64,000 nt of DNA from Listeria seeligeri serovar 1/2b str. SLCC3954 (lineage in GTDB: Bacteria > Bacillota > Bacilli > Lactobacillales > Listeriaceae): NCBI RefSeq assembly GCF_000027145.1, contig NC_013891.1:682001-746000 (forward strand), written 5' to 3'. The translations under genes were made by a program, and so were the position numbers. Position 1 is the first letter of the stretch. Each line of letters starts with the position of its first letter. The notes under the pieces were generated by a model. The model was not told where the DNA came from. It did no database searches and saw only the letters and a list, made by a program, of their open reading frames with translations. Positions 3,892-56,226 of this stretch are shown piece after piece.

Positions 3892-4002
3892 AGTTTGATA
3901 AAATAACGGTGGGTGAGAAGTTTTCGTCACAAGCGTTCTAAAACATGAAATATGTTATACTTATTGCTAAATAAACCTCAAGAAAAGGCAGGTGATTTGT
4001 CA

Positions 4003-4827
4003 GTGAAAAAAAGCAAAGCGGTTCAATTTTTATTATTTTTCTCAGTCCTTGCACTAATACTAAGCATTATTGGAGTTGCTTCGATTTGGTTGGGACAAAA
4101 AAATCATCAAGCGAAGGAAACAAACAAGCAGATGACACAAAGTGAGACAAAAGTCGACAAAAAGCAGGACACTTTTAAAATTACAGCTCTTGGGGATTCA
4201 CTTACATACGGAGTGGGAGATACAGAGGGCGGCGGATATGTTCGCGTGGTAGAGAATTTTTACAAGAAAACGACTAAAAACGTGGAGAATGTAAATCTTG
4301 CTATCAGTGGGGCAAGATCAGATCAACTCTTAAAACAATTAGACCAAAAAGAAGTCCAAAACCAAATTAAGTCAGCGGATGTTATTTTGATGACGATTGG
4401 TGGGAACGATTTGTTTCGTGGCGGAGAAGCACTCGAAGACTTCAAAAGTGATGCGATTACTCAAGCCGAAACTAGCTATAAAAACAATTTGCAACAAATT
4501 TACCAAACGATTCGTAAGCTAAATCCATCTGCGCCAGTTTTTCATATTGGGCTTTATAATCCATTTATGACACTTGAAAATGCAACAGAAATGTCGAATG
4601 TGGTGGCAAAATGGAATATGGAAAGTCAAAATTTAACACAACAAGAAAAGGATATTGTTTACATTCCGACATTTGACTTATTCCAGCAAAATGGCGAGGC
4701 GTATTTAGCAACTGATAAATTCCATCCGAATCATGCTGGATATCAGTTTATCGGCAATCGTGTGACCGAAGTTATTCAGACAGGAGGGGACGGAAGCGAT
4801 GACGGGGCCAGCACTTCAAGTAACTGA
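4003..4827 (+). CDS. SGNH/GDSL-family lipase/esterase, membrane-anchored
   Basis: Hydrolase with an N-terminal transmembrane helix. The four SGNH blocks are visible: GDSLTYG (Ser nucleophile), a Gly in the AISGARSDQ region, GGNDLF (Asn), and DKFHPNHAGY (Asp/His). The likely role is esterase or acyl-hydrolase action on the outer face of the membrane. I chose GTG at 4003 because AAAGGCAGGTG precedes it; an upstream in-frame ATG at 3952 would add residues before the Lys-rich start. Its 3' end overlaps the ABC ATPase gene by 29 nt, so the three genes are probably one operon. Confidence 0.85.
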   Translation: MKKSKAVQFLLFFSVLALILSIIGVASIWLGQKNHQAKETNKQMTQSETKVDKKQDTFKITALGDSLTYGVGDTEGGGYVRVVENFYKKTTKNVENVNLAISGARSDQLLKQLDQKEVQNQIKSADVILMTIGGNDLFRGGEALEDFKSDAITQAETSYKNNLQQIYQTIRKLNPSAPVFHIGLYNPFMTLENATEMSNVVAKWNMESQNLTQQEKDIVYIPTFDLFQQNGEAYLATDKFHPNHAGYQFIGNRVTEVIQTGGDGSDDGASTSSN

Positions 4828-5704
4828 TTTACACAAAAAAATCCGCAAACGAGAAATTATTAAAGGAATTTCCTTTGAAGTGATGCCGGGGGAAGTTTTT
4901 GGATTTCTTGGGCCAAACGGAGCCGGTAAAACAACGACAATCCGGATGATAGTTGGCTTAATTAAACCGACATCGGGAACAATCTTAATTGGCGGGGAAG
5001 ATATTCAAAAGAATTTTACGGAAGCGATGCGCAGTCTTGGCTCCATTGTGGAAAATCCGGAATTCTACGGTTTTTTGACCGGACAAGAAAATCTCGCTTA
5101 TTTTGCTCGAATGGATCCATCAATCAAAAAAGAACGAATCCTAGAAGTTACTGCATTAGTAGGTCTGGAAAAGCGAATTAATGATCGTGTTTCTACTTAT
5201 TCACTTGGGATGCGTCAACGGCTCGGGATTGCCCAAGCGCTACTTTCTAATCCGAAGCTACTAATTTTAGATGAACCGACCAATGGACTTGATCCGTCCG
5301 GTATTCATGAAATGCGCGATTTTATCCGTGCACTAGCTAGAAATGAAGGAATCAGCGTTCTCGTTTCTTCTCATTTACTTAGTGAAATCGAATTGCTTTG
5401 TGATCGAGTGGCGATTATGACAGAAGGAACGATTATTAAAACCGATCAAGTGGCCCATTTACTTAGTTCCCGCGAACAACTTCGCTGGCGTGTAACTCCT
5501 TTTGAACAAGCAAAAACGTTTCTCGAAAGTGTTACCGAAGTGGAAGTCGATGGTGCTTATCTTGTTACATCTATGAACGATAATAGTGCCGAATGGAATG
5601 AACAGCTTGTCGCGCAAGGCATCAAAGTACACGAAATCGATAAGCGTAAACCATCTTTGGAAGACCTATTCCTAGAATTAACAGGGGGTCAGTCGATTGA
5701 TTAA
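4799..5704 (+). CDS. ABC transporter ATP-binding protein
   Basis: Complete single-domain ATPase of 301 residues. Walker A is GPNGAGKTT (about 38-46), the signature is YSLGMRQR (a variant of LSGGQ), Walker B is LLILDEPTNGLDP, and the switch His lies in SSHLLSE. This is the CcmA/NatA-like class that pairs with a separate ABC-2 permease, here the next gene, which overlaps it by 8 nt. The substrate is unknown; export of a lipid, peptide or drug is typical. A strong ribosome site (AGGAGGGG) lies inside the end of the hydrolase gene. Confidence 0.92.
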   Translation: MTGPALQVTDLHKKIRKREIIKGISFEVMPGEVFGFLGPNGAGKTTTIRMIVGLIKPTSGTILIGGEDIQKNFTEAMRSLGSIVENPEFYGFLTGQENLAYFARMDPSIKKERILEVTALVGLEKRINDRVSTYSLGMRQRLGIAQALLSNPKLLILDEPTNGLDPSGIHEMRDFIRALARNEGISVLVSSHLLSEIELLCDRVAIMTEGTIIKTDQVAHLLSSREQLRWRVTPFEQAKTFLESVTEVEVDGAYLVTSMNDNSAEWNEQLVAQGIKVHEIDKRKPSLEDLFLELTGGQSID

Positions 5705-6677
5705 TTTAGTCTATAACGAACAATTAAAATTATGGCGTAAAAAACGATTAATAGTTATTTTAGCGCTAGTTGCCATTATTGTCGCGATTTTTACTTACGC
5801 ACAATTTCGCCAGTATCAAGAAGATGAAAAACAGGCAGGAACAAGCGACTGGCATGTGCAAACACAGCAAGAAATTGTCGACCTTGAAAATCGGCTTGGC
5901 ACAGGACGACTGCCAGAAGAATACCAAAAATATTTCAAAGTACTCGTCGGTCAACTCCAATATTATTTAGACAATGATATTAATCCGAATGCGCCCGGTG
6001 CACCAACCTTTTTAAAAACATTTGTTGAAAATGGTATTAGTTTGCTATTCCCACTCTTTATCATGGTGATAGCTGCTGATTTGATATCCGCTGAAACTAG
6101 CGCTGGAACAATGAAATTTTTACTTACAAGACCTGTGAAAAGGTGGCGAATTTTGACGAGTAAATACATTTCGATGCTCTTGTCGATATCCGCCATTATG
6201 ATTTTATCTGCCGTGATTGCTTACTTAATTTCCGGAATAGTTTTCGGTTATGGTGGTTGGGATGCACCTGTCCTCACTGGATTTGACGTCAAGAACGGTG
6301 CAATTAGCACGACAAATGTTTACCAGCTTCCAGTTTGGCAACTTTTACTAATGGAATTTGGCCTTGCATGGTTTGTCAGTGTAGTTGTTGGCGTGTTAAC
6401 GATGTTTGTATCCGTGCTCGTTCGCTCCACTGCAGCAGTCATGGGGATTATGCTAGCCTCGTTAATTACAGGAACGATTTTAACGAACCTCGTCAGTTCT
6501 TGGCCGAGTGCGAAATACTTATTTATGGTGAACTTACAACTTACTAACTATTTAAATGGCTCTAGTCCACCTGTCGAAGGAATGACTTTGAATTTTTCAA
6601 TGCTGGTTTTAACGGCGTGGATGTTAGTGGCATTTGTATTATCCTATTTCATTTTTACCAAACGAGATGTGTATTAA
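5697..6677 (+). CDS. ABC-2 type transporter permease
   Basis: Integral membrane partner of the ATPase before it, 326 residues with about six transmembrane helices. A first helix (about 17-35) is followed by a large extracellular loop, then helices around LLFPLFIMVIAADLI, ISMLLSISAIMILSAVI, LAWFVSVVVGVLTMF and the C-terminal segment. The SAETSAGTMKFLLTRPVKRW stretch is typical of NosY/DUF2705-like ABC-2 permeases. Ends in a strong terminator. Confidence 0.9.
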   Translation: MINLVYNEQLKLWRKKRLIVILALVAIIVAIFTYAQFRQYQEDEKQAGTSDWHVQTQQEIVDLENRLGTGRLPEEYQKYFKVLVGQLQYYLDNDINPNAPGAPTFLKTFVENGISLLFPLFIMVIAADLISAETSAGTMKFLLTRPVKRWRILTSKYISMLLSISAIMILSAVIAYLISGIVFGYGGWDAPVLTGFDVKNGAISTTNVYQLPVWQLLLMEFGLAWFVSVVVGVLTMFVSVLVRSTAAVMGIMLASLITGTILTNLVSSWPSAKYLFMVNLQLTNYLNGSSPPVEGMTLNFSMLVLTAWMLVAFVLSYFIFTKRDVY

Positions 6678-6702
6678 AGAGCGCTAATTGGCGCTCTTTT
6701 TT
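6678..6702 (+). terminator. Rho-independent terminator
   Basis: AGAGCGC/GCGCTCT stem with a 6-nt loop and T-run immediately after the permease stop codon. Confidence 0.9.
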
Positions 6703-6753
6703 ACGTCTAGTAAAAGTTACTTACTTTTTGTGAGCAAAATACTTTTCTTTTTA

Positions 6754-6773
6754 ATAGTTTAGTTATAAACTAT
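6754..6773. promoter_or_regulatory. Inverted repeat, candidate operator of the quinone-type cassette
   Basis: ATAGTTT-N6-AAACTAT, perfect 7-bp arms, 30 nt upstream of the first cassette start and within the likely promoter region. Related Bacillus cassettes are repressed by MarR-type MhqR/YodB at promoter palindromes. No such regulator gene is adjacent here, so the assignment is inference. Confidence 0.45.
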
Positions 6774-6803
6774 AGTTAGTAATCAAAAAGGAGGTATAAA
6801 CAA

Positions 6804-7691
6804 ATGATCCAAGGAATCCATCACGTTTCCGCATTAACTAAATCATTTAATGAAAATCACCATTTTTATTCTGACATACTAGGGCTGCGGCTCGTGAAAA
6901 ATACAGTCAATCAAGCAAATATTAAAATGCGCCACCTGTTTTACGGGGATTACGCTGGCACACCAGGCACATTGCTTACCTTTTTTGAAATTCCCAAGAT
7001 TGGCACAAGCTACAACGAACGCGCCTATTTCGGAAGCATCACTTTAGGAATTCCCAAAAACACCACCAATTTCTGGGAAAAAAGGCTAAACGATTTTGCG
7101 ATTTCTTTTCAAAAAACCGACAAGACTTTAAGTTTCCATGATCCCGACCGAATGGGTATTATCCTAACGGAAATCAGTGAAACTATTACACATCCTACGA
7201 TCCATACCGAAATACCAGCAGACAAACAAATCGTTCGGATTCTTGGCGCAGATTACCACGTACCAAGCACAGATAAGACAAGCCAGTTTTTTACCGAATA
7301 TTTTGGGTTAGAAAGTCAGAATGGGGTATTAGTAGATAAGAATGGACTGAGCTTTGCGAAAATTTATCCAAGCCGTTCTGACAACAAATCGCGGACAGGG
7401 CGAGGGACAATTGATCACATTGCTTATACCGTAGAGTCTAAAAAAGACGTCGACAAACTTCATGAAATGGCGCTTCAAAACAAGCTTCCGATTGAAGAAT
7501 TCGTTGACCGAGAATATTTCAAAAGTTTATATATTAAAGAACCAAGTGGACTTCGAATTGAATTCGCAAGTAAAGAACCTGGTTTTACAATTGATGAACC
7601 ACTAGAAACTCTTGGTGAAAAATTAGCATTACCAAGCTTTTTAGAAGGAAAAAGAACAGAAATAGAAACTTATTTTGGAGGAGAAAAATAA
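6804..7691 (+). CDS. Ring-cleaving dioxygenase / glyoxalase (VOC) family protein
   Basis: Two tandem VOC domains, starting at IHHVSALT and IVRILGADYHVPSTDKT. The metal-ligand candidates are His in GIHHVS, His in TIDHIAYTV and Glu in LRIEFASKEPG. This is the MhqA/MhqE/MhqO-like extradiol dioxygenase family, which acts on catechol or hydroquinone compounds in the cytosol. First gene of a tight four-gene cluster; ribosome site AAAGGAGGT. The next gene is a diverged paralogue starting at its stop codon (TAATG). Confidence 0.82.
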   Translation: MIQGIHHVSALTKSFNENHHFYSDILGLRLVKNTVNQANIKMRHLFYGDYAGTPGTLLTFFEIPKIGTSYNERAYFGSITLGIPKNTTNFWEKRLNDFAISFQKTDKTLSFHDPDRMGIILTEISETITHPTIHTEIPADKQIVRILGADYHVPSTDKTSQFFTEYFGLESQNGVLVDKNGLSFAKIYPSRSDNKSRTGRGTIDHIAYTVESKKDVDKLHEMALQNKLPIEEFVDREYFKSLYIKEPSGLRIEFASKEPGFTIDEPLETLGEKLALPSFLEGKRTEIETYFGGEK

Positions 7692-8650
7692 TGATTAAAG
7701 ACTTAAAAGGAATTCACCATGTAACAGCAATGACAAGTAGTGCTGAAAAAAATTATGCGTTTTTTACAGAAGTTTTAGGAATGCGTTTAGTGAAAAAAAC
7801 AGTGAACCAAGATGACATCCATACCTACCATTTATTTTTTGCAGATGACAAAGGTTCAGCAGGAACAGATATGACATTCTTTGATTTTCCGAATTTACCA
7901 AAAGGACGTCATGGGACAGATAGTATTTCTCGGGTAGCATTCCGCGTGCCAAGTGATGCGGCGCTTGAATATTGGCTTGATCGGTTCAACCAATTAGAAG
8001 TTCCTCACGGCGAGATTAAAACGTTATTTGGCAAAAAATATCTGACTTTCCAAGATTTTGATGACCAACAATTGCAACTTATTTCGGATGAAAATAATGA
8101 AGGTGTAGCACCCGGAACTCCTTGGAAAAACGGACCTGTCCCAGAAAAATATGCAATTTACGGCTTAGGACCAGTATTTTTAACAGTAGGTTCCTTAAGT
8201 AATATGGAAGCGATTTTGATGTCAATTTTCGGCTTTAAAAAAGTTACGGAAGAAAATGGCTTACATTTATATGAAGTTGGTGAAGGTGGAAACGGCGCAC
8301 AAATCATCGTGGAAGAAAGAACGGATATTCCCGTTGCACTTCAAGGATACGGTGGTGTTCACCATGTTGCATTCCGAGTAGAAGACCACGATGAATTACA
8401 AAAATGGATTGACCGAATGAACACAATTGAAATACCAAACTCAGGTTATGTAAACCGTTTTTATTTTGAATCATTATACGTACCAGTATCAGCAGGAATT
8501 TTATTTGAATTTGCGACTGATGGGCCAGGATTTGCAAGCGATGAACCATATGAAACTCTTGGTGAAAAACTTGCTTTACCACCATTTTTAGAACCAAAAA
8601 GAGCAGAAATTGAAAAAATGGTTCGCCCAATTGATACGAAAAGGAGCTGA
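7691..8650 (+). CDS. Ring-cleaving dioxygenase (MhqO-like, VOC family)
   Basis: Paralogue of the preceding gene, 319 residues. Two VOC domains start at GIHHVTAMTS and YAIYGLGPVFLTVGS. Metal ligands are likely His in GIHHVT, His in GGVHHVAFRV and Glu in ILFEFATDGPGF. Bacillus MhqO-type enzymes open catechol-type rings and protect against quinones. Translationally coupled to the gene before it (overlapping TAATG), with GGAGGAG just upstream, so the two are coexpressed. Confidence 0.85.
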   Translation: MIKDLKGIHHVTAMTSSAEKNYAFFTEVLGMRLVKKTVNQDDIHTYHLFFADDKGSAGTDMTFFDFPNLPKGRHGTDSISRVAFRVPSDAALEYWLDRFNQLEVPHGEIKTLFGKKYLTFQDFDDQQLQLISDENNEGVAPGTPWKNGPVPEKYAIYGLGPVFLTVGSLSNMEAILMSIFGFKKVTEENGLHLYEVGEGGNGAQIIVEERTDIPVALQGYGGVHHVAFRVEDHDELQKWIDRMNTIEIPNSGYVNRFYFESLYVPVSAGILFEFATDGPGFASDEPYETLGEKLALPPFLEPKRAEIEKMVRPIDTKRS

Positions 8651-8656
8651 AGCAAG

Positions 8657-9265
8657 ATGGAACACCTTTTTATTCCAGGGAAAAATAAAGACCTAGCACC
8701 TTTATTACTACTTCACGGGACAGGCGGCGATGAAAAGTCGCTTGTTGAAGTAGCAGAATTCATCAATAGTGATGCGCCAATTCTTTCATTACGAGGCGAA
8801 ATTAAAGAAGGCGGAGCAAATCGTTTTTTCAAAAGATTTCATGATGGCAGCCTGAATTTAGCTGATTTAGAAATTAAGACCAAAGAGTTAATCAATACAA
8901 CCCGTGAACTAGCAGAGAAGTATGAGCTGGATTTCGAAAAAATAATTGCAGTTGGTTACTCGAATGGGGCTAATATTGCTGCAAATGCGTTACTTCAAGC
9001 AGAAGACAGTTTTCATAAGGCGATTTTGTTCCATGCAATGCCAGCGGGAAATGAACAACCAGTCTTTTCGATTGATCACCGAAGTGTCTTTCTTTCGGCC
9101 GGACTAAACGATCCACTTATCACAGCAAAAGCGTCAGAAAAACTGGTAGAAATTTTAGAACATCGTGGTGCAAAAGTGGAGACTGTATGGACTGCGGCAG
9201 GACATTCACTAACAATGGAAGAACTCGAAGCAGCTAAAAAATGGTATCAAAACAATCAGAAGTGA
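8657..9265 (+). CDS. Carboxylesterase/phospholipase-like hydrolase (MhqD-like)
   Basis: Alpha/beta hydrolase of 202 residues. The oxyanion segment is LLLHGTGGDE, the nucleophile elbow is GYSNGAN (Ser), the acid is Asp in AGLNDPLI, and the catalytic His is in AAGHSLT. It matches the YodD/MhqD hydrolase paired with MhqE/MhqO dioxygenases in Bacillus quinone-stress operons. It sits 6 nt after the dioxygenase gene with AAAAGGAG as ribosome site. Confidence 0.85.
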   Translation: MEHLFIPGKNKDLAPLLLLHGTGGDEKSLVEVAEFINSDAPILSLRGEIKEGGANRFFKRFHDGSLNLADLEIKTKELINTTRELAEKYELDFEKIIAVGYSNGANIAANALLQAEDSFHKAILFHAMPAGNEQPVFSIDHRSVFLSAGLNDPLITAKASEKLVEILEHRGAKVETVWTAAGHSLTMEELEAAKKWYQNNQK

Positions 9266-9273
9266 GGAATTAG

Positions 9274-9894
9274 ATGACAATTTTTAGAAGTGCTGAATTA
9301 ACACAAAAAGAAAACTATAAATTTTTAACGGGAAGTATTATCCCGCGACCAATTGCCTTTGTAACAACACTTGCTGAAGACGGGGTGACGGTAAATGCCG
9401 CCCCGTTCAGTTTTTTTAACATTGTATCAAGTGAGCCAGCAATTATTTCGATCGCAGTTCAACGTGTTGGTGGGAAGCAAAAAGACACAGCTAGAAATGC
9501 AGCTTTTACCAAAGAACTAAATATCCACATTGTCAGTGAAGAAATGGTAGAAGAAGTAAATAAAACAGCAGCAAGCCTTGCCCCAGATGAGAGTGAAGTC
9601 GCGCATACGAGTTTACACTTGGAAACTATTCTGGGTATGAAAACGCCTAAAATATCGGAAGCAAACATTGTTTTAACAGCGAAACTAGACCAATTAATTC
9701 CAATTACAAATGATGCAGGAGAAATCGTTGCTGATTTGATTCTAGCACGTATTTTGACATATGAATTGGACGATGCTGTATTCAATAAAGAAAAAGGCTA
9801 TATTTTGCCAGAAGCATTGACTCCAGTGGCTCGTCTGGCTGGAAATGATTACGCAAAACTTGGTGAAATTTTTCAAGTGGTGCGACCAAATTAA
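9274..9894 (+). CDS. Flavin reductase-like FMN-binding protein
   Basis: Member of the flavin-reductase-like (FMN-binding split barrel) family, 206 residues. IPRPIAFVTTL and VNAAPFSFFNIVSSEPAIISI are the typical FMN-phosphate and isoalloxazine-binding blocks. Last gene of the cassette, 8 nt after the esterase. It probably supplies or stores reduced flavin, or reduces quinones; the substrate is not evident from sequence. No clear terminator follows, and the hflXr leader promoter begins right after it. Confidence 0.82.
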   Translation: MTIFRSAELTQKENYKFLTGSIIPRPIAFVTTLAEDGVTVNAAPFSFFNIVSSEPAIISIAVQRVGGKQKDTARNAAFTKELNIHIVSEEMVEEVNKTAASLAPDESEVAHTSLHLETILGMKTPKISEANIVLTAKLDQLIPITNDAGEIVADLILARILTYELDDAVFNKEKGYILPEALTPVARLAGNDYAKLGEIFQVVRPN

Positions 9895-9904
9895 CAGTAA
9901 GTAG

Positions 9905-9933
9905 TTGCGAAACAAAAGACATCATGTTAAACT
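9905..9933 (+). promoter_or_regulatory. Promoter of the hflXr leader
   Basis: TTGCGA-17 nt-TAAACT, with a TGn extended -10 (TGT before TAAACT). Predicted start near 9940, giving a 5' leader of about 280 nt before hflXr. Confidence 0.6.
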
Positions 9934-9968
9934 AGTGGCAACTTAAATTGAACGGAGGGTTGTCCATC

Positions 9969-28679: not shown

Positions 28680-29063
28680 GTGGAGATAAAGGTTCAAGGA
28701 AAATTGACTGACGGCAGAATCGCTTTTAGTAGTGAATACGGTGAATGCGTTGGGATTTGGGCCGATGAAGACCCAGAACCAAGTAGGGTTTACACGGTAG
28801 AAATTACGATACCTGAAATGATTAGTGCAGAACTTTTGCATGAAAGTGAAGAAAAACATTGTGTGTTAGAAATAGATGAAGAAGGCTTAGTACACGTAGT
28901 AGGGAAGTTGGAAGACTACGAGGAAGATGGATTTGCAGTGCTTCGTTTGGAAGAAAGTATTATTTGTTTTGACACCAAGTTCAGCGAAGAAATCGAAATG
29001 CTTCATGGCCGATTTGTTGAATTTGTGGTTTCGGAGATTAAATTGAGTAATGTTGGTATATAA
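28680..29063 (+). CDS. Hypothetical acidic beta-rich protein
   Basis: Unrecognised, 127 residues, strongly acidic (many Glu), alternating hydrophobic strands, no membrane helix or signal peptide. Start GTG 28680 is set by AGGAGG 9 nt upstream; an extended -10 TGCTATAAT lies at 28636-28644. It is the last ordinary gene before the accessory island. Confidence 0.7.
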   Translation: MEIKVQGKLTDGRIAFSSEYGECVGIWADEDPEPSRVYTVEITIPEMISAELLHESEEKHCVLEIDEEGLVHVVGKLEDYEEDGFAVLRLEESIICFDTKFSEEIEMLHGRFVEFVVSEIKLSNVGI

Positions 29064-29075
29064 TTTAATAATAAG

Positions 29076-29129
29076 AAACGAAACTCGTTCTTTAACGCTT
29101 TGTTAGGAAATGAGTTTTGTTTGTTTTTT
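29076..29129 (+). terminator. Rho-independent terminator
   Basis: AAACGAAACTC/GAGTTTTGTTT (11 bp, one G-T) with a TTTTTT tail, just after the gene at 28680. Confidence 0.8.
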
Positions 29130-29207
29130 AAGGATAACTACTTGAGTTGCTACTCACAACTAATAAATATTCATACTTATTTACTCAATGTAATTTTAAA
29201 ATGTTAA

Positions 29208-29416
29208 TTATTTCAATAGGCTATCGCATTCTCCTTGTGTAGTTAATTCATCAAAGATGTATTTTGTGTTTTTTAGCCAATCAATTTTTTCTTTTTCTCA
29301 TCATTTTCAATTTTTCTTTTTGCTTGTATTGGTTGTTCATATTCCCGAATTTCAATGTACGTAGGTGTGTTTTTCAATGATTTTTTTGATTGTATCCATG
29401 TAGCAATCCTAATCAC
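29208..29416 (-). pseudogene. Frameshifted small ORF (remnant)
   Basis: Read from GTG 29416, the frame encodes about 45 Lys/Glu-rich residues (IATWIQSKKSLKNTP then PTYIEIREYEQ) and ends prematurely after KKKKLIG. The next frame continues naturally as DWLKNTKYIFDELTTQGE to a stop at 29208. The break is at an A-run, so a one-base slippage probably inactivated it. I do not recognise the intact protein. Confidence 0.4.
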
Positions 29417-29534
29417 TCCTACCGATAGAAATTGAGTGTTTTTATTTGGTATTTAATTATCAAAGAACGATTTTTATAAAACCTTATTTTTTTCGCCAGA
29501 TAGTGTTCTATAAATTTAAAGTAAATCAACAGAT

Positions 29535-29551
29535 ACTACACTGTATGTAGT
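29535..29551. promoter_or_regulatory. Operator-like palindrome before the broken XRE gene
   Basis: ACTACA-N5-TGTAGT, perfect 6-bp arms, ending at the presumed GTG of the XRE remnant. Typical spacing for an XRE-family operator. Confidence 0.4.
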
Positions 29552-29738
29552 GATAAAATATAAGAATATTCGTTCAATAAGAGAAAATAATGAATTGGCA
29601 GAGCTATTAAACGTTTCTTAAAACACTTATTCTCAGTATGAAGCTGGAAAAATTGAGTGGACGGCTAGTAAGTTGCTTAAGATAGCTGACTACTTTGATG
29701 TTAGTGTGGATTATTTGTTGGATAGGACAAAAAAATAA
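29550..29738 (+). pseudogene. Broken XRE-family HTH regulator
   Basis: Reads KNIRSIRENNE, then LAELLNVS, a TAA stop at 29619-29621, then NTYSQYEAGKIEW and a C-terminal SVDYLLDRTKK end. An intact family member would have Gln at the stop (CAA to TAA) and about six more residues between NNE and LAELL. The gene therefore carries a nonsense mutation and a small in-frame deletion. Phage/ICE-type small repressor in origin. Confidence 0.7.
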
Positions 29739-29859
29739 ATAAAAATAATCAATCATGCTTTGAGTTTGTTTATGCAGATCTGCTAAGAAAATAGAATAGT
29801 CGATTTGGAATAAGTTTTGGTGTGTTGTGAATGGCTATAAGTAGAGTGATTAAGAGTAG

Positions 29860-29888
29860 TTGTTTTTTGAGTCTTTATTGGGTACTAT
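29860..29888 (+). promoter_or_regulatory. Candidate promoter of the antisense antitoxin RNA
   Basis: TTGTTT-17 nt-TACTAT pointing toward the 3' end of the toxin transcript. In Fst/par loci the antitoxin RNA II is transcribed convergently from that side. This is a weak match and inference. Confidence 0.3.
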
Positions 29889-29961
29889 AGCAATGCGAAA
29901 TGATAGTCGCTTTATCAATATTACACAAAAACCATTCTACGGCGAATATGTGGGCTAGAAA

Positions 29962-30099
29962 GGCAACTTGCATTTAGTCATTGTCTTTCTCATCTAACCA
30001 ATGAGAAACTAGTTGGATTACTATACCTACAAATATAGGCGCAATGACTAACGATAGAAGCTCATCCAATATTGCACACCCCCTTGAGGGCAAGTTGCC
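29962..30099. repeat. Complementary 10-bp ends of the toxin RNA
   Basis: GGCAACTTGC at 29962-29971 and GCAAGTTGCC at 30090-30099 are exact reverse complements flanking the toxin ORF. In Fst-type RNA I, 5' and 3' ends pair and carry the contact sites for the antisense RNA. Confidence 0.65.
29974..30069 (-). CDS. Fst-like type I toxin (31-residue membrane peptide)
   Basis: The peptide core SLVIAPIFVGIV followed by LVSHWLDEKDND matches the Fst/pAD1 par toxin family: a short hydrophobic helix, then a charged C-terminal tail ending in LDE-type residues. Such peptides insert into the membrane and are silenced by an antisense RNA. I chose TTG 30069 because AAGGGGGTG lies 7 nt upstream and the resulting 31 residues match family length. 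A longer in-frame ATG at 30156 would add unrelated residues. The ribosome site can fold with CCCTCAAGGGGG just upstream, as expected for translational silencing. Confidence 0.82.
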   Translation of the reverse strand: MDELLSLVIAPIFVGIVIQLVSHWLDEKDND

Positions 30100-30112
30100 A
30101 AAATGAGTGTAG
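30099..30112. repeat. 14-bp element, copy 1 (toxin promoter)
   Basis: CAAAATGAGTGTAG, identical to 31100-31113. It sits at the predicted transcription start of the toxin RNA. Confidence 0.6.
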
Positions 30113-30116
30113 TATA
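30111..30116 (-). promoter_or_regulatory. -10 element of the toxin RNA
   Basis: The minus strand reads TATACT, about 42 nt before the toxin start codon. I do not see a clear -35. Transcription would begin around 30104, within the shared 14-bp element. Confidence 0.45.
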
Positions 30117-30143
30117 AGAGGGTGGTTAAAGGAAAAGGTATTA

Positions 30144-31088
30144 TTACCATCCCCATTGCCTTTTGACATCTTTTTCAAGTTTTTCTTTTGGTATAAATTC
30201 TGAATTTATCTGTTTAATAAATTTTTTTGTATTATGATTGGAATGTAGATTTTTCTCTGAAAACATAGAAATACGTTTCTTTTCTTTTTCAAAAAAAGTT
30301 AGGTGTCTTAATGAATCTAAATAAGTATTTATCCTCTCCTTCTCAAATTTTCTTTTTTGGAGGACATCATTATAGCAGTATTCTATATAACCTAAATGCT
30401 TAATAATTGCCATTTTAATCAACTCATTTTCTCTATTAGAATATTTGTAATTACTAACCAAAAATTTTAAATCTTTTGAATTTACTATTCTAGGCTCTAA
30501 TCGTGTATCCAAATCTTTATCAGTATAAGAGTTAATGTTTATAACAATTTGAGTAAAGCCTAAATTTAATGCATAATTTTCTAATTGAATTATGAAATTT
30601 TCATAAAATTCATAAAAAGTATCAAAAGTAAAATTTTTGCTTATTCTATATAAATCAAAATCTGTTATTTCAAATGTTAGTCCATATAAACTAGTATTTA
30701 TTCTCATATTTCCTGAAAAAGAAAATTTTTTATAGTAACCTTTTGACCAGATATTTAAGCACTGTTCTGATGAATAAGGCTGATATTTACATGAAATACA
30801 TAGATTTTCAGAGAATAAAGATTCTAATAAATCTAAATTTTTATGATTAAATCCCTTATCTGGTAGTAATGTTTGTAAACATTGTTCACGAGTATATATT
30901 GTTCCAAAATCATCAAAAGATATATCGAAATATTCTAACAGCTCAGTTAAAACATTAATTGAAATATCATGAAATGGATTATTTTTAATCTTAGTAATAG
31001 CCTGACGAGATATTGTGGTTTCTCTTGCTAGCATATGATTGCTAATATTTCTTTCTAACATTAATTCCTTGAGTCTATTTTTATACAT
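30144..31088 (-). CDS. XRE-family HTH protein with a large unknown C-terminal domain
   Basis: About 314 residues. Residues 1-65 form a Cro/C1-type helix-turn-helix (LARETTISRQAITKIKNNP). The remaining 250 residues match no domain I know; they include a CISCKY segment with two Cys and are rich in Tyr, Phe and Lys. I chose ATG 31088, preceded by GAGGTGATAAAT; the in-frame ATG at 31154 would add a Phe-rich stretch with no ribosome site. AT-rich like the rest of the island. It ends just before the toxin promoter and may regulate toxin or NTPase expression. Confidence 0.7.
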   Translation of the reverse strand: MYKNRLKELMLERNISNHMLARETTISRQAITKIKNNPFHDISINVLTELLEYFDISFDDFGTIYTREQCLQTLLPDKGFNHKNLDLLESLFSENLCISCKYQPYSSEQCLNIWSKGYYKKFSFSGNMRINTSLYGLTFEITDFDLYRISKNFTFDTFYEFYENFIIQLENYALNLGFTQIVININSYTDKDLDTRLEPRIVNSKDLKFLVSNYKYSNRENELIKMAIIKHLGYIEYCYNDVLQKRKFEKERINTYLDSLRHLTFFEKEKKRISMFSEKNLHSNHNTKKFIKQINSEFIPKEKLEKDVKRQWGW

Positions 31089-31099
31089 ATTTATCACCT

Positions 31100-31113
31100 C
31101 AAAATGAGTGTAG
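31100..31113. repeat. 14-bp element, copy 2 (upstream of the XRE gene)
   Basis: CAAAATGAGTGTAG, identical to 30099-30112, 12 nt before the XRE start codon and same orientation. A candidate autoregulatory operator. Confidence 0.55.
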
Positions 31114-31455
31114 CAGAAAAAGAAAAAAAGTAAAACTGTAACTTGAGTAGTCAAACTATAAAATAAATTGCTTTTTTAGTTGATGCTATGGGATTTTTGT
31201 TCGATGAAAGTGTGATAAACTATATTTATAGGTATCAAAAAATAAATTGATAAATCTGTAAATCTCTATATAGATGGAATGTATATAATAAGAAATATAA
31301 GAATAGCGAAAATTGTCCCAAACGGAGTGTTACTAGCTTTTCTAATGTAAATTTTGATATAGGAATTCTTTTTTTGTGAAAAATATTGTTATTGCGAGAA
31401 TTGTACATTTAAATTATATTTATTAAATGATTTATAGAATATAGGAGGGGGAAGT
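31114..31455. other. AT-rich divergent intergenic region
   Basis: No ORF with a ribosome site and no hairpin with T-run. It must contain the promoters for the minus-strand XRE gene and the plus-strand NTPase. A TTGACT near 31146 on the minus strand is a possible -35; I cannot place the plus-strand promoter with confidence. Confidence 0.5.
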
Positions 31456-34400
31456 ATGTCAAGGCTAAATAGAATTCAAAACGAAATCAAACAACTAGAG
31501 GGAGGAAGATTTCAAAAATTATGTGATATTTATCTTTATCGTAAAAGAAGTTGGGAAAATATTGTATCTCTAGGTTCTATGGAGGGGACAGATAAGACAA
31601 CAAAAGGAATACCTGATACGTACTTCTTTGATAATCAATCTAATAGATATATTTTAGTTATGTATGGTACGAGAGCAGACTCTACAGCTAAGTTAGAAGT
31701 AGATATTAAAGAAGCAATTGAAAAAACTAAAATTGATAAAAAAGATATTCAAGAAATAATCTGTTGTCATACTTCTTCTAATTTAACTGTATCAAAAGAT
31801 AAGGAACTTAGAAGTTTGGCAGGTCCAATAGAGCTAAAGCTTATAGGCATAGATACATTATCTCATGACCTTCTTCAGTTTAAATATCAAAATCTTGTAA
31901 AGGACTTCCTAGGAATAGCAGAATCAACAGAGCAAGTTTGGAATATAGAACAATTTATCTCCATTCATGATAAAAGTAAAACAAATGCACCTCTAAATAC
32001 ATCCTTTATTGATGAAACAGATACAGTTGAAGAATTAACAGAAGACTTAAATGGTCATCAGATTCTTTTGTTATCTGGGATATCCGGAACGGGGAAAACG
32101 AGACTGGCTATTGAAGTATGCAAAAAATTGCCTTCAGATAGTAATGTGATTTGTGTTAAAAGTAACAGCATGCCTGTGTATCAAGATATTAAGGATGCAT
32201 TAGATAACAATAGAGTAAATTACTTATTTTTAGATGATGCCAACATGATCACTAATTTCGATGCCATTGTTAACCTGTTGAGATTAGAAGAGTATGAACA
32301 AAAGTTGAAAATTATTATCACTGTTAGAGACTACGCACTTTCAGGAATCATTAATCAGTTAAAGTCTTTTAAAATAAAAACACAAAAAGTTTCTTTAATG
32401 AGTGATGAACAGATTGAATTACTCATTAATAGTATAAATAAAGTTTCTTCTAGTAATCTTAGAAAAATAATAAAATTATCTCATAATAACCCTAGAATAG
32501 CAGTAGTTGCATCTATTATGGCGAAAGAACAAAATTATGAATTTATCGATAATGGCAAAGGGATATTAGGTAGTTACTATTATCAAATTATCAAGGAAAA
32601 TGCTCTTTCTCAAAGCGAGAAAGTTAGTCTGTTCATTTTGAGCTTTAGGCACAAATTGAATTTGACCGATACGGATACTTTGCAAGAGTTACTAACTTTT
32701 TTTAAACTAGATTTTGATAATTTTTTAGTCTCATTAAATCAACTACACGATAAAGAGTTATGTGACATATTTCAAGATAAAGCGGCTAAGGTCAGTGATC
32801 AAAGTTTGTCTGATTTTGTGATAATAGATTTTATTGCAAATAACAAAGTTTTCAAAGTAAGGGACTTTTTCCTTAGTTTGTTCCCTGAAAATGCAAAAGA
32901 TATTGTTGAGATGCTTGTACTTGTTAATAATTTTAATTCCTCAAATGATTGGGTAGATTACTTAACAGCTGAGATAAAGTATGTTTATAATGAAGTTATT
33001 GCAGATATTGATAAAGAACGTTTTTTAACACAATACGGGGCACTAATACCTATTGAAGCACTTACCTACACTAATGAAAAGATACAATCTACTAGCTGTA
33101 GTGAATATCAAATATCTCAAAAAGAATTTGAAGAGAAAAAAAGAAGTAATCAAATTGAAGATCCGATTATTGAGATTCTTTGTTCATTGTCAAATAGCGA
33201 AAGATTTAATGATGCTGGTATGCTTCTTATGGAATACCTAAAAAAAAGACAGGATAAAGTTTATGAAGTTTTTTCAGCAATCAAATCGAACTTTGATATT
33301 GAAGAGGATGGGAATTCTTATCTAGAAAAAAGATTTTGTGTTTTTGAAATTTTCTCAAAGCAAAAAAATATTAATGAGTTGACAGCTTTATTAATTGTTA
33401 ATGTTGCTGAAAATTTCTTAAAGTTTTCTGGGGAAAAGTTCATTTCTAATGGTCGATCAGTAGTCATTAGTCGCTACACATTAGTTGATGGAGAATACCT
33501 AATTGAACTTCATACAAAAATATTTTATATGCTCTTTGAAGTTTATAACTTAGAATATGTAGAAGTGAATAACCATATAGATAAACTATTATTTAATTAC
33601 CCAGTCTATGAAGTGAAGAATGGTTTTTTAGAAACAGTTAGTTCAGATTTAAAATGTATAGAAAATCTCTTTTTTAAAGATTTAAATAAGCTAGATATTA
33701 GACAAGAAGCGATAGTATTCAAATTGAACTCAGAAAAAAATAAGCTAAATTTGAATTCTCAGCTATTTTTTGAATATAAACCATCAAGTAGGCAAAAAAT
33801 CTATAAAATATTTTCATCTAATATGTTGGATTATAAGGCAGAAGAATTTGACTATGAAAAGGCTCAAAAATTAAGAATAAAGAATCTCAGTGAGAGTTTT
33901 AATGGATATTTTAATAACTTACCATGGATATTCAACATACTGTCAGAATATCAGTCAGATGAATTGTTAAATAAATATGAGCTGGAAGAATCAATACTCC
34001 TCTTGTATTCTCAGTTAGAAATAGCAGATAAAGTACAAATGTTAACTGCTTTATTGAGTAGTGAATTTAGTCTCTCAAATTATCATTTTGACTATTATAT
34101 GGAAAAGTTATCATTTGAAGAAGGCAAAAATATTTTAAATTGTGTTAAAAAGGAAGTTGACGAAAGATGGTATCTTTCAAATCTTTTTACATGTAACAAG
34201 ATTAATAATGATATGATAAAAGAACTTGTTTTGTTTTTAAAGAATCTCAAAAATTATGAAAAAGTCAATTCTTTCAATATTTTGTCTTTTGAAAGCTACA
34301 TCAAACAAGATGCTACTATCTTAGATATTTTAATGAGTAAGTATAGGGGAGGCGAAATCTCAAAAAGATTTTTCATACCTAGCTATGTGCCTGAGGAAAA

Positions 34401-35097
34401 AGCTGACAAAATAGTAGACATAGTAGGTTACAAAGAATTAGAAAGAATATATTTAGATAGTTTTGATGATGAAAACGTTGATGATTCTGGGGCGATTTTT
34501 AAAAGCCTGTTAAAAAAAGGTGATGCTAATTTTATTTACTTATTTCTTACTAAGCTGAATACTGAAAGGCTGAAATTAAATTCTGTGAAACGTGATATTC
34601 AACTAAAGTATATATGGAAATCACAGGTTGCGGAGGAAGGAATTAAAAAATATCTAGACTTCTTAATTCAAGAAAATCGTGTGATTTATGTTGGGGTAGA
34701 TCCATATTTGGAAGAAATATTCAAAGCAAATACCGAACGTACTTCGGAGTTTATAAAGGCAGAGATATTTGATACTGGAGATGAGAATAGATTGGTTAAT
34801 TTGTACAATCTGTCTCTTGAAATATTTGATGATGAGGTATTACTACATTTATTCAAATTACTCAAAGATAAAGACATTAATGCTAATTTTTTGGAGAAAT
34901 TAAATTTAACGATGCGTACTCATAGTTGGTCAGGAAGTTTAGTACCATTGTTAGATAAAGAAATCAGTTTTTTGAATCAGTTACTTGAAATTTTTGAAGG
35001 TATAAAATATATTTCTCATGCTTTAGTTATTTCAACACGGATAGATTCACTTAAAAAGCAAAAAGAAAAGGAATTGTTGTCAGATTACTTGGAATAA
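31456..35097 (+). CDS. STAND-like P-loop NTPase with nuclease-like N-terminus, candidate antiphage protein
   Basis: Single polypeptide of 1213 residues with AGGAGGGGG as ribosome site. Residues 1-170 look like a PD-(D/E)XK-type domain: Glu15 in LEGGRFQKLC, Asp54 in GIPDTYF, then a strand ILVMYGT where the catalytic Lys is not evident. Residues 180-400 are an ATPase with Walker A GISGTGKT (208-215) and Walker B YLFLDDANM (256-264), fitting the STAND (nSTAND3-like) class. Residues 450-1213 are helical without recognisable repeats, the usual place of a sensor. The layout resembles Avs and related immune NTPases. Lower GC than its neighbours suggests transfer. Defence is inferred. Confidence 0.72.
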   Translation: MSRLNRIQNEIKQLEGGRFQKLCDIYLYRKRSWENIVSLGSMEGTDKTTKGIPDTYFFDNQSNRYILVMYGTRADSTAKLEVDIKEAIEKTKIDKKDIQEIICCHTSSNLTVSKDKELRSLAGPIELKLIGIDTLSHDLLQFKYQNLVKDFLGIAESTEQVWNIEQFISIHDKSKTNAPLNTSFIDETDTVEELTEDLNGHQILLLSGISGTGKTRLAIEVCKKLPSDSNVICVKSNSMPVYQDIKDALDNNRVNYLFLDDANMITNFDAIVNLLRLEEYEQKLKIIITVRDYALSGIINQLKSFKIKTQKVSLMSDEQIELLINSINKVSSSNLRKIIKLSHNNPRIAVVASIMAKEQNYEFIDNGKGILGSYYYQIIKENALSQSEKVSLFILSFRHKLNLTDTDTLQELLTFFKLDFDNFLVSLNQLHDKELCDIFQDKAAKVSDQSLSDFVIIDFIANNKVFKVRDFFLSLFPENAKDIVEMLVLVNNFNSSNDWVDYLTAEIKYVYNEVIADIDKERFLTQYGALIPIEALTYTNEKIQSTSCSEYQISQKEFEEKKRSNQIEDPIIEILCSLSNSERFNDAGMLLMEYLKKRQDKVYEVFSAIKSNFDIEEDGNSYLEKRFCVFEIFSKQKNINELTALLIVNVAENFLKFSGEKFISNGRSVVISRYTLVDGEYLIELHTKIFYMLFEVYNLEYVEVNNHIDKLLFNYPVYEVKNGFLETVSSDLKCIENLFFKDLNKLDIRQEAIVFKLNSEKNKLNLNSQLFFEYKPSSRQKIYKIFSSNMLDYKAEEFDYEKAQKLRIKNLSESFNGYFNNLPWIFNILSEYQSDELLNKYELEESILLLYSQLEIADKVQMLTALLSSEFSLSNYHFDYYMEKLSFEEGKNILNCVKKEVDERWYLSNLFTCNKINNDMIKELVLFLKNLKNYEKVNSFNILSFESYIKQDATILDILMSKYRGGEISKRFFIPSYVPEEKADKIVDIVGYKELERIYLDSFDDENVDDSGAIFKSLLKKGDANFIYLFLTKLNTERLKLNSVKRDIQLKYIWKSQVAEEGIKKYLDFLIQENRVIYVGVDPYLEEIFKANTERTSEFIKAEIFDTGDENRLVNLYNLSLEIFDDEVLLHLFKLLKDKDINANFLEKLNLTMRTHSWSGSLVPLLDKEISFLNQLLEIFEGIKYISHALVISTRIDSLKKQKEKELLSDYLE

Positions 35098-35433
35098 AAT
35101 TATGAAATAGATATGTTATTCTTCAAAATTCTGTTTGGAGTGCTAAAAATTAATGATAATGATGAGTATTTATTATTAATGGTAGTCTTGTTCTAATTAA
35201 CGTGTATTTTGGGGTGCGTCTTGAGGTGCGAAGGGATTAAAGTAAGCTGAAATCCATTAAAACCTTATCTAATGGGATGTCCGCTCAGTCCATTGATACT
35301 AAATGATTTTCAAGCTCTTTGAAAATTTTTTGCACACAAACAGGCCTTAAGAAAGGCTATAAATCTTTATATTTCCAATTAATATTCACTTTATACTAAC
35401 ACTAAGCACACTTCTCAACAGTAGACAAAAAAC
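35098..35433. other. Non-coding right flank of the island
   Basis: No ORF with a ribosome site. It contains an inverted repeat CCATTA-N10-TAATGG (35254-35275), a GGTGCG direct repeat near 35215-35235, and a weak AT-rich hairpin with T-run (35306-35331) that may end the NTPase transcript. I see no integrase or clear attachment-site duplication matching the left flank. Confidence 0.5.
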
Positions 35434-35480
35434 GCTATGCCTCCATTCCTAACAAACAGGAAACGAGGCATAGCTTTTTT
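35434..35480. terminator. Bidirectional terminator
   Basis: GCTATGCCTC/GAGGCATAGC perfect 10-bp stem flanked by AAAAAA and TTTTTT. It terminates the minus-strand UPF0266 gene and insulates the island. Confidence 0.9.
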
Positions 35481-35962
35481 CAACTATATGTAGCAAACAC
35501 AGCAAGCATTTTCTCCAAATCTTTCTCAGACTTCGCAAACAACATTAACCGTTGACGATTCGTTTCAATCACAAGTATGCCGTCTTCGGATAAATTCATT
35601 CGTTCAATTTTGTCATAAGGGAAAAATAATAAAGCGTAAAAAATACCAGTTTCTTTAAAGACGGCTCTTGAACTACGGAAGAAGCAAATGTAGATGAAAA
35701 GCACTCCCATGATTGCTAGTAATACCGAAGTGGAGAATGGGCCTTCCCGGAAGAACGCATTAGAAACAAATAACAGCGCGATAATCCCAACAAAAAGATA
35801 GCCGTCCCAACGACCTCGAGAACGCAATTTGACAGTTAAAACAGATTTGCCTTTCCAAAGTGGAATAACTGCATCATTATACAAGATGTATAGTAATGTC
35901 AGTATGTTGGCAACAAACAAAAAGATATTCGTAGCATCCCAAACCATTTTTTTATCACTCAC
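35480..35962 (-). CDS. UPF0266 (YobD-like) membrane protein
   Basis: 160 residues with about three transmembrane helices (about 10-30, 55-70, 80-96) and a cytoplasmic C-terminal domain holding [16 protein letters not shown], the hallmark of UPF0266/DUF986. In E. coli the homologue yobD lies next to manXYZ, and here it again follows a mannose-family PTS. The function is unknown; the conserved neighbourhood suggests a link to mannose PTS activity. Confidence 0.85.
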
Positions 35963-55930: not shown

Positions 55931-55957
55931 ACGTATTTTACCAACATCTTGATTGTC

Positions 55958-56147
55958 AGATAGCACATCTATAAGAAATTTCGACAAATTCTTATAGCAG
56001 TCCAGCACCTTTTGGCAACTGTCCCAACAACTATTTTTTAAACAAAGAGAAAATAGTCACTTCGGCAATCATCCTGTTCGTTTTTTGTCATTGGCGTCTT
56101 TGTTTCGCCTCGAAAAAAGTACTAGTGAATCTTGCAACCTCTACCTC
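55958..56147 (-). promoter_or_regulatory. Lysine riboswitch (L box)
   Basis: The minus-strand leader carries the L-box blocks: AGGTAGAGGTTGC at the 5' end, GATTGCCGAAGTGA, GTTGGGACAGTTGCC and a closing CTATCT that pairs with AGGTAG (P1). These blocks are in the order and spacing of lysine aptamers. Lysine binding should favour the downstream terminator and stop lysP transcription. Confidence 0.9.
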
Positions 56148-56226
56148 ACCATTTGGATGAGGGTTTCTATTTAGTTAATTACTTTACCCATAATAACGGA
56201 AATTAGGTAGTTTGGCAATAAGTTTT

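Follow-up and report, generated by a model that had tools for sequence, protein, structure and literature searches.

Avs1-4 carry nuclease effectors and recognise the large terminase, the portal or another phage protein, and Avs5 joins Sir2 to the nucleotide-binding module nSTAND3 (PF20720), according to the available part of PMC12931631; portal-bound Avs4 is the subject of PDB entry 8dgf, going by its title. We have compared with these systems a gene in a stretch of 64,000 nucleotides from Listeria seeligeri serovar 1/2b str. SLCC3954 (NC_013891.1, positions 682,001 to 746,000, hereafter the window), where the open reading frame (ORF) 31456-35097, on the forward strand and with an ATG start, encodes 1213 amino acids. 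Judging from its sequence and structural models, this gene probably encodes a single-protein antiphage sensor of the Avs type, resembling bacterial NLRs. Its family belongs to the Avs/bacterial-NLR kind as a variant and is not a new kind of system. The parts of the gene are these:

31456..35097, + strand, putative STAND immune-sensor gene, 1213 amino acids (ORF, Pfam, motifs and alignment)
31456..32010, + strand, predicted PD-(D/E)XK-fold domain, N-terminal, residues 1-185, with P53-D54, M69, K79 and D83 (topology and structural matches, the best being the Avs4 N-terminus, 8dgf_B)
32014..32379, + strand, nSTAND3 profile match, residues 187-308, with Walker A at 208-215, Walker B at 257-263 and TVRD at 289-292 (Pfam and alignment)
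32380..32865, + strand, second part of the NTPase module, residues 309-470 (outer limit set by inspection; NB-ARC matched as far as residue 358)
32866..35094, + strand, all-helical C-terminal region, presumed sensor, residues 471-1213 (the model covers 431-1213)

A preliminary description of this DNA had announced a protein of this length with a P-loop core, and both claims hold: GISGTGKT lies at residues 208-215 and LFLDDAN at 257-263, and the coding length of 3639 nucleotides is shared with relatives in Enterococcus ureilyticus (87% identity), Enterococcus sp. 665A (71%) and Macrococcoides caseolyticum (70%). Its assignment to STAND is borne out by profile matches and conserved NTPase residues. 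Two Pfam families, and no other, pass their cut-offs, nSTAND3 PF20720 (30.4 bits vs 27.2) and NB-ARC (27.6 vs 23.5); six places in the same genome match nSTAND3, this gene being the only one above the cut-off. The alignment comprised 11 full-length members, namely the window protein, its three close relatives, one from G015, another genome of the genus (26% identity), three Leptospira plasmid copies, two from Bacilli (G722 and G766) and one from the viral contig L035. All 11 have Walker A as GxxGxGKT, Walker B as DD and the sensor residues TVRD, without variation, and all match nSTAND3 at E<=1 (NB-ARC in 10/11). A twelfth member, from a second viral contig (L074), has an nSTAND3 match below the cut-off. 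NACHT is absent from the Pfam list of the window protein and was matched weakly (E<=1) in 6 of the 11 members. PADLOC, NCBIfam and PHROGs gave no match to the STAND protein at E < 0.001 outside the P-loop/NTPase region.

The nuclease-like N-terminus proposed earlier found support in the predicted PD-(D/E)XK core topology and in structural matches to Avs4, MspJI, LlaBIII and BspD6I, and none in a sequence-profile search, where this domain had no match. The best structural match pairs residues 2-189 of Avs4 (8dgf_B) with model residues 3-166, at 14% identity in the aligned part, and the domain is predicted to have the Avs4 N-terminal fold; PDB sequence searches with full-length and N-terminal profiles gave no match to Avs4. 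Among 17 N-terminal sequences P53, D54 (the motif II Asp), K79 and D83 are always present. Motif III, (D/E/Q)-x-K, is replaced in the window by M69-Y70-G71 (M-Y-G for E-x-K); at position 69 eight of the 17 have Met, five Glu, three Gln and one Thr, and none has Lys at position 71. Asp54 and the missing motif III Lys had been read correctly, the invariant Lys79 had been overlooked, and Glu15, taken for a catalytic residue, is unsupported, relatives having D, N or S there. K79 sits in helix 77-90, the next after motif III, as a migrated Lys would. The available text of PMC1913061 describes the PD-(D/E)XK families DUF506, DUF790 and DUF1626 as lacking the motif III Lys and conserving a positively charged residue in the helix that follows; the window family is like them in both respects and differs in that the window clade has also lost the motif III acid, with Met instead.

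With its motif altered, the N-terminal domain is nevertheless the most constrained of the protein, which argues against decay. The ratios of nonsynonymous to synonymous substitution rates (dN/dS) of the window gene against the L001 (E. ureilyticus), L002 and L003 (Macrococcoides) copies are 0.07, 0.09 and 0.16 in the N-terminal domain, 0.14, 0.10 and 0.19 in the NTPase, and 0.27, 0.22 and 0.24 in the C-terminus, all of them rough values, with dS > 1 in two of those for L002. For the C-terminus, left as an unclassified sensor in the preliminary description, structure prediction of residues 431-1213 gave an all-helical array free of strands of at least 3 residues (pLDDT 71.6, pTM 0.46); structure searches with this model returned generic helical-repeat proteins only, and no specific family was found.

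The order effector, STAND, putative repeats is common to this protein and Avs4 (AVAST type 4), following the Avs order in the part of PMC12931631 available, although with 1213 residues it is shorter than Avs4 (about 1534). With Avs5 (AVAST type 5), as far as the same source goes, it shares the nSTAND3 NTPase and a C-terminus that, in the window protein, is predicted to consist of helical repeats; the difference is the N-terminus, Sir2-like in Avs5, whereas that of the window protein models as a PD-(D/E)XK fold and has no SIR2 match. To bNACHT proteins the link is a related N-terminal domain (GTPD...QYTT...K..DI) fused to NACHT in one relative (G214, L079 1-2016), NACHT being missing from the window protein; this fusion suggests effector swapping between STAND clades. 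Similar N-terminal domains also occur in stand-alone proteins of 320-337 amino acids (L018 1483-2445, L021 1420-2433), which have no NTPase and no Pfam match to E=0.01. Among the open-licence papers listed in literature searches we did not find the combination of an Avs4-like fold with nSTAND3 described.

The family is patchily distributed. A single-sequence search matched 2 of 25 genomes of the genus (the window's own and G015), the same 2 among 36 of the family, and 3 of 398 in the phylum, one by a weak C-terminal match. When 398 Bacilli genomes were searched with the profile, 22 gave matches: six encode the family protein in full or its N-terminus (G000, G543, G722, G766, G349 in two frames and a truncated G479), two (G571, G667) have the N-terminal domain in other proteins, and 14 match in the NTPase region only. 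The G349 relative (L071 15240-17642) is split at a contig end into a 188-residue N-terminal ORF and a separate NTPase frame, through natural fission, frameshift or assembly error. All 13 matching records of the plasmid collection are from Leptospira; on one of these plasmids (L011 9881-13675) a hypothetical protein of 1264 amino acids, with no Pfam match over cut-off, is encoded directly downstream of the STAND gene.

Some relatives have phage or defence neighbours. These genes were picked by eye, ten being run in PADLOC and ten proteins in Pfam. On viral contig L035 the STAND gene is flanked by a phage regulator (phrog_36) and by HNH, small and large terminase genes. The L074 copy has an ORF6N antirepressor on one side and, on the other, an unmatched ORF with capsid and prohead protease genes after it; as the far end holds what reads by inspection as a flavodoxin-like ORF, this copy may stand near a prophage edge. 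Type I restriction-modification genes adjoin a truncated copy (L072), and HerA and SIR2 the copy in G766 (L070); the 19.5 kb that surround the copy in G722 (L069) include genes for AbiLi/AbiLii, for Mrr, and for MrcB_N and DUF2357-PDDEXK_7. An antiphage role fits the putative domain order, the patchy distribution and these neighbours.

The AT-rich island between ordinary genes that had been noted around the gene is real, with 28.2% GC across 29064-35426 vs 37.3% elsewhere in the window, and it corresponds to an insertion that contains a cassette with these features:

29064..35426, no strand, whole insertion relative to uninterrupted sites, which occur in 8/25 genus genomes
29857..35355, no strand, cassette common to the window and E. 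ureilyticus L001 (86.8% DNA identity in the main block of 5439 columns from 29943; a 92-nucleotide block from 29857 at 77%)
29928..30099, - strand, RefB11 RNA overlapping the Fst ORF (RF02848, 63.9 bits; an Enterococcus small RNA family)
29974..30156, - strand, Fst-family type I toxin ORF, 60 amino acids as listed (NF033608, 1.3e-13; Fst match at residues 32-59)
30144..31154, - strand, divergent gene for a Cro/C1-type helix-turn-helix (HTH) protein, 336 amino acids as listed, which accompanies the STAND gene in E. ureilyticus too (Pfam and DNA comparison)
35341..35355, no strand, candidate 15-nucleotide relic of the rpsI 3' end, 14/15, at the right edge of the cassette (E 3.4 alone; opposite the L001 repeat)

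At uninterrupted sites a gene of 127 amino acids, which ends at 29063 in the window, joins ~35427 directly, ahead of a DUF986 gene found in all 25 genus genomes. The site between these genes (28680-29063 / 35480-35962) is variable, its cargo differing in close relatives: ~2.3 to 5 kb of other DNA in G013, G011 and G015, the last with genes for an N6 methylase and a specificity-like protein, and ~1 kb in G017, G018 and G019. The window genome is counted as one of the 25, and 10 more diverged genomes were left unclassified. In close kin the left edge holds only roughly, since G013, G011 and G015 remain similar to the window as far as 29131-29216. The insertion also contains, at 29556-29737(+) and beyond the stretch it has in common with E. 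ureilyticus, what looks by eye like the remains of a gene for a small XRE-type repressor, interrupted by an in-frame stop.

In L001, 4402-4493 corresponds to window 29857-29948 (77%) and 4525-9918 to 29943-35355 (86.8%), with unrelated flanks. On either side of the L001 cassette stands a copy of the 3' end of rpsI (named by inspection), at 3951-4001 and 9901-9951, the two being identical in 50 of 51 positions, and no integrase-like ORF of at least 50 amino acids was seen between them by inspection. Sequence resembling the rpsI 3' end also follows the Macrococcoides copy, 1.7 kb downstream (5453-5475 and 5493-5513), and a Schlafen AlbA_2 / RecG-C-terminal-like gene (L003 3863-5167) stands between that repeat and the STAND gene. 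The window has kept no more than the 15-nucleotide candidate relic, weak by itself, and its genome has one rpsI 3'-end match, far from the window. The L002 and L068 copies are found in loci with a guaA-like gene (by inspection) and an integrase gene; a search there for exact 16-nucleotide repeats of the end of guaA gave none. Both rpsI and guaA appear in the available parts of PMC4701971, PMC5704250 and PMC7563491, papers on streptococcal integrative elements. As for the companions, the L001 cassette has both RefB11 and RefA9 RNAs; RefB11 was not found in the L002 and L068 loci, the only others searched for it. Among the 36 family genomes the HTH protein has, besides the window, one partial relative (G004, at a contig end; 45% over residues 1-161). 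L002 has no DNA match to the HTH gene, and L003 is uninformative, its contig ending 110 nucleotides upstream. Elsewhere in the window there is a lysine riboswitch at 55953-56151(-) (RF00168, 105.3 bits).

By analogy with Avs, as described in the available part of PMC12931631, the most likely course is sensing, oligomerisation and activation of the N-terminus. The helical C-terminal region would bind some component of the infecting phage, the NTPase would exchange its nucleotide and thereby drive oligomerisation, and the clustered N-terminal domains would act on nucleic acid, so that the infected cell stops making phage. The Fst toxin locus and the HTH gene may stabilise the cassette and tune expression.

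Several observations weigh against an Avs-type antiphage sensor. The nSTAND3 model is of limited specificity and weak evidence by itself, matching in all 14 well-known control genomes and above the cut-off in 7, and some family members also score other P-loop models. No Avs-named PADLOC model matched up to E=1, in a search run with no positive control. The library presumably contains Avs4 models. PADLOC detected nothing defence-specific in three proteins near the window gene, and nothing defence-like was noticed by inspection beside the L001, L068 and L071 copies; the defence neighbours above come from four loci, picked by eye. The C-terminal model is weak by its pTM. The N-terminal model, built from six sequences, is moderate (pLDDT 73, pTM 0.70), and the structural matches ranked next after Avs4 are RNA polymerase chains E, which we take to be RPB5 and which are not nucleases. 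Because of M69-Y-G71 in place of motif III, catalysis by this domain is doubtful.

It is a serious possibility, if not a probable one, that in the window clade the N-terminal domain is a pseudo-nuclease that binds nucleic acid or a partner or assembles the oligomer, within a protein that would still be an immune sensor. Met or Thr at position 69, the RNA polymerase chains just mentioned, which have a similar fold and no nuclease function, and the presence in Pfam of an entry called 'NACHT-associated inactive Restriction Endonuclease 1' all point this way. Against it stand the four residues kept in every sequence and the strong conservation of the domain; moreover, other PD-(D/E)XK families are described in which the Lys of motif III has moved into the helix after it and Thr has stayed behind (PMC1913061, from the text available). 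A regulator, for example of transcription or stress response, seems very improbable: STAND proteins do include the transcription factor MalT and a divergent HTH gene adjoins the STAND gene, but Pfam finds no HTH within the protein itself, its N-terminus is predicted to have a restriction endonuclease fold, some relatives lie on phage contigs or near defence genes, and the HTH gene is not matched in L002. Rather unlikely, too, is a cassette serving its own maintenance only, in which the Fst locus and the STAND gene would exclude competing mobile elements and not lytic phage. The Fst/RefB11 locus here, the RNA pair in E. ureilyticus and the copies on Leptospira plasmids, beside integrase genes (L002, L068) and on phage contigs are in its favour, yet such a role is compatible with phage defence and RefB11 did not appear at L002 or L068. 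One step beyond the preferred reading of an Avs-type antiphage sensor, and less likely than not, would be an Avs-like lineage whose effector has lost the canonical nuclease acid and has D54, K79 and D83 under the strongest selection in the protein, pointing to a rearranged active site or a defence that does not cut, and whose sensor spreads in a minimal cassette without an integrase, made up of the Fst addiction locus, the HTH gene and the STAND sensor, flanked by rpsI repeats and served by recombinases in trans.

This appears to be an uncharacterised single-gene STAND family, in which an Avs4-like effector fold is paired with the nSTAND3 module reported for Avs5 in the accessible part of the literature. 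Such a pairing would mean that bacterial immune receptors swap effectors. The residues that occur naturally at the catalytic position, E, Q, T and M, offer a ready comparison for the need of nuclease activity, and the three-gene cassette flanked by repeats suggests a route by which one immune receptor may move among chromosomal sites.
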